The notes beneath the pieces were generated by a model. It made no database searches. It had not been told where the DNA came from and saw only the letters and a program-made list of their open reading frames with translations. From Halorubrum sp. DM2 (GTDB lineage Archaea; Halobacteriota; Halobacteria; Halobacteriales; Haloferacaceae), in the NCBI RefSeq assembly GCF_901686465.1, contig NZ_LR594487.1, positions 1,485,650-1,549,649 on the forward strand: a stretch of 64,000 bases of DNA. The letters run 5' to 3'. The stretch's first letter is position 1. Each line of letters opens with the position of its first letter. Of the stretch, positions 5,245 through 9,014 are shown piece after piece. The position numbers were made by a program, and so were the translations under genes.

Positions 5245-6405
5245 ATGAGCGAGTTCGACATCGTCGATGCGACCGCGGTCCGTGAGGGGCGCGCAACCGA
5301 CGCGTACTTCGAGCGGACCGAGGCGGCGCTGGAGGCCGCGGGGCGGAACCCCCGCGTCGTCGCCGAGGTGACCGCGGACCAGTTCCCGGACGGGGAGTTC
5401 GAGCTGTTCGCCGGGCTGGGGAACGCGGTGGAGCTGCTGGCCGGCCGCGACGTCGACGTCCACGCGATCCCCGAGGGGCGGCTGTTCGACGGCGGCCCGG
5501 TGATGCGGATCGAGGGGCCGTACCTCGCGTTCGCGCGGTTGGAGACGTCGCTTCTGGGGTTCCTCTCGCACGCGTCCGGGATGGCGACGGCGGCGCTGGA
5601 CTGCCGGCTCGCCGCGCCCGAGTCGAGCGTCCTCTCCTTCGGCGCGCGCCACGTCCACCCCGCGATGACCGCCGCGGTCGAGCGGTCGGCGCTCGTCGGC
5701 GGGTTCGACGGCTTCTCGCACGTCGCCGCGGGCGAGTTGATCGGCCGGGAGGCGTCCGGGACGATGCCCCACGCGCTCGCCATCTGTTTCGGGCGGGGCC
5801 AACAGGAGGCCGCGTGGCGCGCCTACGACGAGGGCGTCCCGGGAGATGCGCCCCGGATCGCCCTCTGTGACACCTACTCCGACGAGGTAGACGAGGTGCT
5901 CCGGGCCGTGGAGACGCTCGGCGACGACCTCGACGGCGTCCGCCTCGACACCACCGGCTCCCGACGCGGCGACTTCCGGCACATCGTCCGCGAAGTCCAG
6001 TGGGAACTCGACGCGCGCGGCCACGCGGACGTCGACGTGTACGTCTCGGGGGGACTCGGTCCCGCGGACCTCCGGGGGCTGCGCGACGTCGTCGACGGGT
6101 TCGGCGTCGGCGGGTACGTCTCCAACGCGGACCCGGTCGACTTCGCGCTCGACCTCGTCGCCGTCGACGGCGAGCCGGCGGCCAAGCGGGGGAAGCTCTC
6201 CGGCGCGAAGGCCGTTTACCGCACCGCCGACGGTGCCCACGCCGTCGGACTCGCAGACCGCTCGGGGCCCGAGGGAGCCGAGTCGCTCATGGAGCCGGTG
6301 ATCCGGGACGGCGAGGTCGTCGACGGCGACGCGTTCGACCTGTCGGCGGCGACGGAGCGGGCGCTCGCGGACGCGCCGGCAGTGGGCTACGGGAGCGATC
6401 AGTAG
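5245..6405 (+). CDS. pncB: Nicotinate phosphoribosyltransferase
   Basis: The enzyme joins nicotinate and PRPP to give nicotinate mononucleotide in NAD salvage. The 386-residue protein has the typical archaeal form: an N-terminal domain with EGRLFDGGPVMRIEG and ARLETSLLGFLSH, then FGARHVHPAM, the substrate region VRLDTTGSRRGDF, and YVSGGLGPADLRGL near the phosphate-binding loop, ending in the C-terminal barrel. The neighbouring nicotinamidase would feed it nicotinate. Translation starts at ATG 5245 about 90 nt after the surface protein gene, so it may share its transcript or have its own promoter. Confidence 0.9.
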   Translation: MSEFDIVDATAVREGRATDAYFERTEAALEAAGRNPRVVAEVTADQFPDGEFELFAGLGNAVELLAGRDVDVHAIPEGRLFDGGPVMRIEGPYLAFARLETSLLGFLSHASGMATAALDCRLAAPESSVLSFGARHVHPAMTAAVERSALVGGFDGFSHVAAGELIGREASGTMPHALAICFGRGQQEAAWRAYDEGVPGDAPRIALCDTYSDEVDEVLRAVETLGDDLDGVRLDTTGSRRGDFRHIVREVQWELDARGHADVDVYVSGGLGPADLRGLRDVVDGFGVGGYVSNADPVDFALDLVAVDGEPAAKRGKLSGAKAVYRTADGAHAVGLADRSGPEGAESLMEPVIRDGEVVDGDAFDLSAATERALADAPAVGYGSDQ

Positions 6406-6512
6406 TTTCAAATTTTGTATGATATGACGCGTATCGGTTCGGATAGCGCGTCAAATGCGCACACGAACGGCTTTTATGTGACACGAAAGATTGTTTGTTC
6501 CTTGATAAGATA

Positions 6513-6656
6513 TGCGTCGCGCTCGCGGACGGACTCGGCGACTACGCGACGAGCCAGATGCTCCGCGAGCAGCTGGAGACGCTCGAAGAGCACGCTCACC
6601 ACATCGAACACTACCTCGAAGACGACTCGCTCGTCGTCGAGTCCGCGACGAACTGA
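6513..6656 (+). pseudogene. dpsA: Relic of a Dps-type ferritin (C-terminal 47 codons only)
   Basis: In this frame the sequence reads CVALADGLGDYATSQMLREQ, then LETLEEHAHHIEHYLEDDSL and VVESATN, followed by TGA. This closely resembles the last helix and tail of haloarchaeal DpsA, a DNA-protecting iron-storage dodecamer. The ferroxidase-bearing N-terminal two thirds are absent. Upstream the frame runs into AT-rich non-coding DNA with no suitable start. The AT-rich/GC-rich switch at about 6510 probably marks a deletion junction. An ATG at 6512 exists but is out of frame. The neighbouring DtxR-family operon is a fitting context for an iron gene. Confidence 0.7.
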
Positions 6657-6718
6657 GACGACGCGGCGGCGGGGGGACTGAGCGACGACCGACCGGCAGC
6701 CGACCGATTCCGAATTTT

Positions 6719-7132
6719 TCAGTCCGCGTCCGACTGCGGGAGCGACACCGCTCCGGGGCCGAGCGGGTCTCCCGGCACCCCGTCGAGCAGCAGGTCGACG
6801 AGCCGGTTTGCCACCGTCGGACTCACCAGCGCCGCCATCTCCATCGCCTCGCGCTCGTGGGCGTCGAGTCCCAGCACGTCGCGGAAGAACCACGAGAGCG
6901 CGACGTACGCCTCGTGGCGGTCCTCGGCGCGTTCCCGGCCCGCGTCGGTGAGCGCCACGCCGTCGTACGGCTCCCGAGCCACGAGCCCGCGGCGTTCGAG
7001 CCGCTGGAGCATCTCCGTCGTCGCGGCCGGCGACCGCCCGACCGCGTCGGCGATCCGTCCCGGCGGAACCGGCGGCGACGACCGGTGTTCCGCGATGTAC
7101 AGCGCGAGCAGGTACTCCGTCTCGCGCGTCAT
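6719..7132 (-). CDS. DtxR/SirR-family metal-dependent transcriptional regulator
   Basis: The 137-residue protein opens with MTRETEYLLALYIAEHRSS, then the winged-helix recognition region (ADAVGRSPAATTEMLQRLE) and wing (GLVAREPYDGVALTDAGRER). The metal-binding/dimerisation region holds RHEAY, DVLGLDAHEREAMEMAALVS, consistent with Fe- or Mn-sensing DtxR proteins. No C-terminal SH3-like domain is present. I chose ATG 7130-7132, because it overlaps the TGA of the upstream small gene (ATGA), implying translational coupling. Extending upstream adds only an Arg-rich, non-homologous stretch. It is the last gene of a three-gene operon with DtxR-box-like dyads upstream. Confidence 0.85.
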   Translation of the reverse strand: MTRETEYLLALYIAEHRSSPPVPPGRIADAVGRSPAATTEMLQRLERRGLVAREPYDGVALTDAGRERAEDRHEAYVALSWFFRDVLGLDAHEREAMEMAALVSPTVANRLVDLLLDGVPGDPLGPGAVSLPQSDAD

Positions 7133-7299
7133 TCCGACGCCGTCGAACCGCCCTCGCTCGGCTCCTTGTCCGTCGGCCCGTCCCCCGTCGGCCCGTCGTC
7201 CCGCGAGTCGCCGCTCTCGGCGTCGGCACCGAACAGCACGAGGCAGGCCCACGCCCAGCCGTTCGCCCGGGCGCGGCGCGGCGAGTCCGACACGGTCAC
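7129..7299 (-). CDS. Small coupled protein, 56 residues
   Basis: The likely start is GTG 7297-7299, which overlaps the TGA of the preceding gene (GTGA). The stop overlaps the ATG of the regulator (ATGA). The product begins VTVSDSPRRARANGWAWACL, has a short hydrophobic run (WAWACLVLFG), and then an acidic Gly/Asp/Pro-rich tail. No family is recognised. The double overlap is the main evidence that it is translated, and it could serve mainly as a coupling cistron. Confidence 0.55.
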   Translation of the reverse strand: MTVSDSPRRARANGWAWACLVLFGADAESGDSRDDGPTGDGPTDKEPSEGGSTASE

Positions 7300-8111
7300 G
7301 CCCTCCGAGTCAGGTGGTCGCGGACCGCCCGCTGGCACTCGGTGAGCGTCTCGACGAGCCGCGTGACCGTCGAGAGGACGGGGTGTGAGGCCGGGAAGTC
7401 GTCGTAGAGGTACGCGACCGTCGAGCGGTGCCGGAGGCCGACCGCCGCGCCTCGGCTAGCGGTCCGGTCGAGGTCGGCCTGCCGGTCCGCGAGCAGCGAC
7501 TCGCAGGCCGCGATCCGGTCCGCGAGCGTCTCGTGACGCCGGCGTAGCTCGTCGAACCCGAGCGCCGAGAGGGGCGTCTCGTCCGCGGTCGCCAGCCAGT
7601 CGGTGACGTCCCGGATCGTCTCGTGCGCCGACCGGAGGGACGCGGCCTCGCGCTCCAGCGTCCGGTCGAACACCGCGAGCTCCGCGAGCCGGTCGTCGAC
7701 GGCGGACCCGATCGCGGACGCGACCGGCGGGGTGAGACCGTGGTCAGTCTTCGGCGAGAGCGCGACCGCGACGGCGTCGCCCAGTTCCTCACGGATCGTC
7801 GCCGACAGCGGTTCGTCGGCGGCGCGGTCGGCGACGCTGTGGGGGCACACCGTCTCGGCGAACGCCTCTCGGACCCGCCGGCAGCCGTCGGTCGCCGAGG
7901 CGGTCCGTCCCCCGACGGCCGCGCGAACGCCGCCGGCTCCCGGTCCGGTACCGGCAGTCGTCTCCCCACCGGAGGCCGCCGGGCCGGAGGCTGTGGGGAT
8001 CGACGCGACGGTCGACCCGAAGCGCTCGTAGGCCCGTCGCTCGTCCGCGACGACGTCGCGCTCGGCGGCCACACGGTCGCGAGCGCGGTCGACGTGGGTC
8101 TCGACGCTCAT
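7296..8111 (-). CDS. Coiled-coil protein of unknown function (DUF7260-like)
   Basis: The 271-residue cytoplasmic protein has a helical N-terminus rich in Arg/Asp (RARDRVAAERDVVADERRAYERF), a Gly/Ser/Thr linker, and then the conserved block VREAFAETVCPHSVADRAADEPL. Long helices with heptad-like spacing follow (ELAVFDRTLEREAASLRS, then the DRIAACESLLADRQADLDRT stretch). This order matches the haloarchaeal DUF7260 proteins as I remember them. It is the first gene of the operon ending in the DtxR-family regulator, so a link to metal homeostasis or stress is inferred from context only. Confidence 0.65.
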   Translation of the reverse strand: MSVETHVDRARDRVAAERDVVADERRAYERFGSTVASIPTASGPAASGGETTAGTGPGAGGVRAAVGGRTASATDGCRRVREAFAETVCPHSVADRAADEPLSATIREELGDAVAVALSPKTDHGLTPPVASAIGSAVDDRLAELAVFDRTLEREAASLRSAHETIRDVTDWLATADETPLSALGFDELRRRHETLADRIAACESLLADRQADLDRTASRGAAVGLRHRSTVAYLYDDFPASHPVLSTVTRLVETLTECQRAVRDHLTRRA

Positions 8112-8169: not shown

Positions 8170-8219
8170 TTAGGCCCGCCTAAAACATCAAAAAACCATC
8201 GATTTTTAGGACGGCCTAA
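8170..8219 (-). promoter_or_regulatory. Two DtxR-box-like dyads upstream of the regulator operon
   Basis: Two near-palindromes occur, TTAGGCCCGCCTAA (8170-8183) and TTAGGACGGCCTAA (8206-8219). Their half sites (TTAGGC/GCCTAA) resemble those of DtxR/IdeR-type boxes. Their centres are 36 bp apart and they flank an A/T-rich stretch that could be the TATA box for the gene starting at 8111. The obvious candidate to bind them is the operon's own DtxR-family protein, giving metal-dependent autoregulation. Confidence 0.65.
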
Positions 8220-8411: not shown

Positions 8412-9014
8412 CTACAGCTCTTCGACGGCACCGCCGTCGGCGCGCTCTCGGAACACCTGTCCTTCGATGAGCGTCACTATCGTGTCCTCCTCCTGCCACG
8501 CGGTGGGGGAGAGCTTCGCCTTCCGGCAGGCGCGCGAGAGGAACTCCGCGCCGGACCAGCCGTTCTCGACGGGGACCGTCGGGTAGAGCCAGCCGTGAGC
8601 GTTGCCGCTGTCGACGGCGACGCCGTGGGTGCCGACCTCAAGGTCTTCGAGCGGGTCGTTCGTGAGGATCGTATTCGAGACGACGAACACCGAGACCGTG
8701 AGGTTGTCCAGCTCCTTCGGCTCCACCTCGGAGCCGCAGGAGTCGTCGGAGGCCGCCTTGATGGCGGCCTCGACGATGGCGTGGCCGAGCTGGTCGGAGG
8801 TCTCCCACGCGCCGGCGCAGCCGCGGAGGCGGCCGCGTCCCCGCGTCGATTCGAGTCGAACGAAGGCACCGGTGCGGGCGTAGAACGCTTCGCGCATGCT
8901 GCCGGGTTGTTCGCGTTGTCCGTGTTGGACGAACGACTCGACCGCCTCCCGCGCGAGTTCGACCGCTCGTGCACCGTCGTCGTACGACAGCTGAACGGTC
9001 TGAGCCTCGGACAT
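8412..9014 (-). CDS. AMMECR1-domain protein
   Basis: The 200-residue protein spans the complete AMMECR1 domain. It contains GAFVRLESTRGRGRLRGCAG, where the family signature LRGCIG appears as LRGCAG, then AIVEAAIKAASDD, and LDNLTVSVFVVSN preceding the GTHGVAV loop. The family is universal in archaea and eukaryotes. Its biochemical role is unresolved, though a link to Memo-like chemistry has been suggested. It is diverged from the RNase P RNA gene, so the two share the promoter region 9015-9134. Confidence 0.9.
   Translation of the reverse strand: MSEAQTVQLSYDDGARAVELAREAVESFVQHGQREQPGSMREAFYARTGAFVRLESTRGRGRLRGCAGAWETSDQLGHAIVEAAIKAASDDSCGSEVEPKELDNLTVSVFVVSNTILTNDPLEDLEVGTHGVAVDSGNAHGWLYPTVPVENGWSGAEFLSRACRKAKLSPTAWQEEDTIVTLIEGQVFRERADGGAVEEL

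Follow-up and report, generated by a model that had tools for sequence, protein, structure and literature searches.

The dpsA locus and its neighbouring genes

The window, by which we mean the whole stretch of 64,000 nucleotides that was analyzed (C1:1485650-1549649), contains the remnant of a dpsA gene, flanked by a nicotinate phosphoribosyltransferase gene and a DtxR-family regulator gene (Table 1). This relic corresponds to codons 136-181 and the stop codon of the 181-codon haloarchaeal DpsA. Homology to the DpsA of an intact relative, the Halorubrum genome G016, runs from Val136 through the stop codon at 6654-6656, and all of the 46 retained residues are identical to those of G016. The open frame that contains the relic (6495-6656, + strand) matches the haloarchaeal DpsA family NF041388 at profile positions 131-171 of 171 (E 9.8e-16), passes the cut-off of the Pfam Ferritin family PF00210 (E 2.4e-6) and matches residues 138-180 of the Halobacterium DpsA structure 1moj (E 1.7e-11). 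These matches are far beyond chance. It should be noted here that the relic scores 58.1 bits against a curated NF041388 score of 170, positions 131-171 alone being matched. Compared with haloarchaeal DpsA (NF041388; Halobacterium salinarum DpsA, PDB 1moj), the relic thus shares the final 46 residues and the stop, but differs in lacking codons 1-135 and with them the ferroxidase region. The ferroxidase ligands, which we take to be numbered His52, His64, Asp79 and Glu83, all precede residue 136 and are absent in the alignment to 1moj. An earlier sequence-only reading had proposed the last 47 codons of a Dps-like ferritin with a clean stop and without the catalytic N-terminal part, while allowing that the frame might not be DpsA at all. 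The identity, the missing N-terminal part and the stop are as proposed, and only the count needs correction to 46 codons plus the stop.

As also recognized in that reading, the relic adjoins an iron-type regulator gene, to which it is convergent with about 62 bp between the two stop codons. The regulator passes the cut-off for the DNA-binding domain Fe_dep_repress (PF01325; 38.1 bits versus 26), a domain type that it shares with the haloarchaeal DtxR-family iron regulators Idr1, Idr2, SirR and TroR, and gives a weak match below the cut-off to the metal-binding dimerisation domain (PF02742; 22.7 bits versus 27, E 9.7e-5). No Pfam match was obtained for the small open reading frame that follows, and no mention of DUF7260, the domain of the next protein, was found in a literature search. 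DUF7260 adjoins DtxR of this type in several genera. The name of the right-hand AMMECR1-like gene is our presumption. Leyn and Rodionov (2015) are said to have studied the DtxR regulon. DtxR-type regulators of haloarchaea take part in iron homeostasis according to PMC11349517, and the DpsA of Halobacterium is downregulated under iron deficiency according to PMC3600143.

Table 1. Features around the dpsA relic, in positions of the window.
Feature	Position	Strand	Basis
Nicotinate phosphoribosyltransferase gene, left neighbour	5245..6405	+	NF006415, 513.9 bits (cut-off 243); synteny
Decayed upstream promoter element (TTTTATGTGACACGAAAG)	6472..6489	+	Relatives have TTTTAGG-N5-CGAAAA
Truncated TATA-like element (TTGATAAGATAT)	6502..6513	+	Relatives continue with AAG, giving ATATAAG
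Deletion junction	6513..6516	+	Spacing in relatives
dpsA relic	6516..6656	+	NF041388, PF00210, 1moj
DtxR-family regulator gene, 137 aa, convergent to dpsA, frame intact	6719..7132	-	PF01325; synteny; DtxR tree
Small open reading frame, 69 aa, between the DtxR and DUF7260 genes	7129..7338	-	Open reading frame list
DUF7260 protein gene, frame intact	7296..8111	-	PF23921, E 1.1e-74
Twin palindromes TTAGG-N4-CCTAA, probable DtxR operators	8170-8183, 8206-8219		Spacing of 36 bp; located before the DUF7260 and DtxR genes
AMMECR1-like gene, right neighbour	8412..9014	-	Synteny in relatives

The genome contains 28 occurrences of the palindrome TTAGG-N4-CCTAA, compared to one of the pattern read backwards, and the clusters of the palindrome include the surroundings of two further dpsA copies (7.5 kb and 1.21 Mb, see below) as well as the window. 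Four pairs in the genome have a spacing of exactly 36 bp. Since the twin palindromes stand before the DUF7260 and DtxR genes, self-regulation of these genes is suggested. The regulator gene, the DUF7260 gene and the palindromes are all intact beside the relic.

The convergent arrangement of dpsA and the regulator gene extends to other genera: among the 24 loci fetched, all 10 non-Halorubrum loci show, within the fetched stretch, a match to DpsA that is opposite in strand to DtxR (about 5 kb from it in Haladaptatus), and 3 of these 10 also have DUF7260. Among 23 examined nicotinate phosphoribosyltransferase loci, out of 52 found, 4 have a full dpsA, 1 has the relic, 2 have DUF7260 only and 16 have none of these. 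The cassette at this place is thus either an insertion in a minority or a frequently lost element.

A single deletion joins the dpsA promoter to codon 136

A full 181-codon dpsA, for which the sequence-only reading had advised looking in sister strains, is present at the same locus in four Halorubrum relatives (G016, G021, G022 and G073). In G016, G021 and G073 the nicotinate phosphoribosyltransferase gene is followed by dpsA and then by the DtxR and DUF7260 genes, which represents the ancestral type of order; G022 has the full dpsA without DtxR at this locus. At the junction in the window, GATAAGATAT (6504-6513) is joined through the two bases GC to GTCGCGCTCG (from 6516). The spacing from TTGATAAGATAT to GTCGCGCTCG is 435 bp in G016, G021 and G022 versus 2 bp in the window. 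Compared with these three genomes the net loss is thus 433 bp, and it comprises the end of the TATA-like element, 30 bases of leader and all codons from the start to codon 135. When 52 genomes of the genus were searched, the exact junction was found only in the genome of the window itself, and no other genome had it at up to 2 mismatches; a match with 3 mismatches in G075 was taken as chance. An older, shared deletion is thereby rejected, the deletion being known from one genome of the species. The four bases GTCG directly follow ATATAA in the leader of G016 and G073 and also begin codon 136, so that this repeat may have guided the deletion by microhomology, although such a repeat is weak evidence in a GC-rich genome. 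The two GC bases at the joint match neither side exactly.

Since the genome contains several dpsA copies, which can confuse an assembly, we considered the possibility that a full gene is present and that assembly or sequencing dropped the 433 bp, for instance through collapse with other copies. However, collapse is unlikely, as the closest other full copy shares only 81% identity with the tail across 135 bp (C1:7864-7998); the genome was assembled as one contig of 3.45 Mb with 99.94% completeness, and substitutions absent from the four relatives are also found in the upstream promoter element. An artefact is accordingly very unlikely. A sharp change in base composition at about 6510, which had been read as a mark of the junction, does not bear on the matter: the AT-rich stretch itself is real (about 6405-6515), but the dpsA genes of the intact relatives have the same AT-rich promoter in front, which rules the step out as a deletion signature.

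The promoter of the relic is damaged in both conserved elements

To describe the promoter we compared 28 of the 29 listed dpsA copies of the same type, the window not being among them and the plasmid copy G022_pl having been dropped for its misplaced start. An element TTTAGG-N5-CGAAAA is present in 24 of the 28 promoters and starts 68-71 nt before the ATG. A second element, TWTAAG, is present in 25 promoters (23 found by script and two by eye, G003 and G066, with TATAAG at the usual place) and ends 24-27 nt before the ATG. The latter is likely a TATA box with a short leader, its spacing presumably matching the haloarchaeal pattern. In the window, CTTTTATG is the upstream element in which TTTTAGG has changed to TTTTATG, one of the substitutions that set the window apart from its four relatives, and the second element is broken at the joint, ATATAAG having become ATATGCG. 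With the upstream element altered and the TATA-like element cut, the relic has lost its likely promoter core. It should be added that the intact dpsA at 7.5 kb in the same genome has TTTGAAG at that place, so that TWTAAG is not strictly needed in that form. The proposal of the sequence-only reading that CTTTTATG at about 6472 is a TATA sequence still able to drive transcription is not tenable in the light of this comparison of dpsA promoters.

The left half of the upstream element TTTTAGG-N5-CGAAAA of the 28 Halorubrum promoters resembles the palindrome TTAGG-N4-CCTAA, whereas its right half differs; the element is possibly a variant DtxR site at dpsA.

Part of the promoter does remain, and together with the convergence of relic and regulator gene this would be compatible with a residual transcript through the tail acting as a regulatory or antisense RNA against dtxR. 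Yet both promoter elements are damaged, and a T-rich stretch between the genes (about 6712-6719) may end transcription, which leaves such an RNA scarcely credible.

The loss of dpsA is probably recent

Relative to the four relatives, the relic carries a single private change over its 46 codons, and this change is silent. In the same lineage, private third-position changes number 21 in the 386 codons of the left neighbour and 7 in the 192 codons of the AMMECR1-like gene. At such rates, a tail drifting over the whole branch would be expected to have accumulated about 5 to 7 changes over its 138 bases, and by a rough Poisson estimate the chance of one change or none is about 1 to 4%. Because one private change contrasts with this expectation, the deletion probably occurred late on the branch of the window, in line with the recent loss that the well-preserved tail had previously suggested. 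For the regulator gene, 9 of 15 private changes in the window lineage fall at codon positions 1 or 2, compared to 4 of 5 in G016 and 5 of 8 in G021; some relaxation of DtxR in the window lineage is possible, although G016 and G021 show the same pattern as the window lineage.

The same preservation could indicate a function. The reading frame of the tail extends upstream to a TTG (6495), and the protein sequence has not changed, as would also be the case for a functional small protein, which counts against reading the relic as a pseudogene. Such a protein would have 53 residues from the TTG, or 32 from an internal ATG (6558, codon 150), and might for example bind intact DpsA subunits. However, the recency of the loss accounts for its conservation, and no second genome among the 52 has the junction at up to 2 mismatches. 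The junction does contain an ATG (6512), but in another frame than the tail, and G022 has ACG instead of the internal ATG at codon 150; the TATA-like element, moreover, is cut. We therefore regard a functional small protein as highly improbable. Lacking a proper start and the ferroxidase residues, the relic is most likely silent, with neither useful transcription nor an active translation product.

Other dpsA copies in the genome

Elsewhere in the genome, where the earlier reading had recommended a search for an intact copy, two full dpsA genes are present, at C1:7475-7984 (282 bits) and C1:301033-301545 (266.8 bits; cut-off 170 for both). The copy at 7.5 kb is of the same type as the relic and aligns with 1moj over residues 1-179, and the copy at 301 kb is a paralogue common in the genus. 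Two further copies have internal deletions that leave the C-terminal end and the stop codon in place. In the copy at 1.21 Mb (L076, 5602-5772), coding bases 106-171 are joined to 435-546, the matches overlapping by 4 bases at the joint; in the copy at 1.06 Mb (L075, 5437-5589), coding bases 172-324 are joined to 506-546, with an overlap of 8 bases. The first segment of the former ends at coding base 171 and the latter begins at 172, which may be chance. The genome therefore contains four copies of the type of the relic, of which one is whole and three are broken by different internal deletions, the regulators and DUF7260 being kept at two of these three.

In the DtxR tree, the regulators that accompany the 7.5 kb and 1.21 Mb copies cluster with that at 730 kb in G022, where the dpsA copy is frameshifted, and with Halopenitus (100/99, 97/86), and the regulator in the window groups with those of G016, G021 and G073 (99/97). 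The extra DtxR-DUF7260 cassettes therefore come from another lineage.

A deletion pseudogene, probably tolerated through redundancy

The relic is homologous to part of a gene that four relatives carry complete at this locus, and it has lost its start codon and likely promoter core. Based on the present data, we consider it about 90% probable that it is a deletion pseudogene, a complete dpsA having been cut by one net 433 bp deletion and its loss having been tolerated, probably through redundancy. The ancestor would have had a complete dpsA after the nicotinate phosphoribosyltransferase gene and convergent to dtxR. One deletion would then have joined the promoter just past GATAAGATAT to codon 136, and the loss would have been tolerated with another full dpsA of the same type remaining in the DtxR-DUF7260 cassette at C1:7.5 kb and the paralogue at C1:301 kb. 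Redundancy probably made the loss tolerable, but many of the 52 genomes of the genus have one full dpsA only, which counts against redundancy as the cause.

The relic is like other deletion pseudogenes of redundant genes in its one clean deletion, in the intact copies elsewhere and in the intact gene in sister species, but differs from them in that different internal deletions have broken three separate dpsA copies of the same genome. As a pseudogene the relic is ordinary, and this repeated breakage is its sole unusual feature. We entertain, as an unlikely reading, that the lineage sheds DpsA from surplus DtxR-linked iron cassettes under selection against ferritin dosage rather than through plain redundancy. 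In favour of this doubtful idea, three of the four same-type copies were broken separately and show short repeats where the ends meet, as would fit a harmful effect of surplus DpsA. A title-level literature search of limited reach found no dpsA pseudogene in Halorubrum. The locus offers a clean case of recent archaeal gene loss, in which the ancestral state, both ends of the deletion and the copies that survive are each identifiable. With dpsA broken repeatedly in one genome and neighbouring DtxR and DUF7260 genes persisting, the redundancy or dosage of ferritin could be tested in a simple way.

In cassettes without dpsA, no DpsA protein match was detected (one locus, L118, at E 1e-3 and three, L119-L121, at E 1e-6), and the DNA matches of only 26-69 bp that several loci gave are scattered and were taken as chance. 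A weak internal DpsA-like fragment lies at G046:C2:2392176-2392304 (L095; 35% identity over 68 positions), with no further cassette gene in the fetched stretch. In another genome (G010; L112, 5535-7214), three dpsA-like genes stand in tandem next to a DtxR gene.
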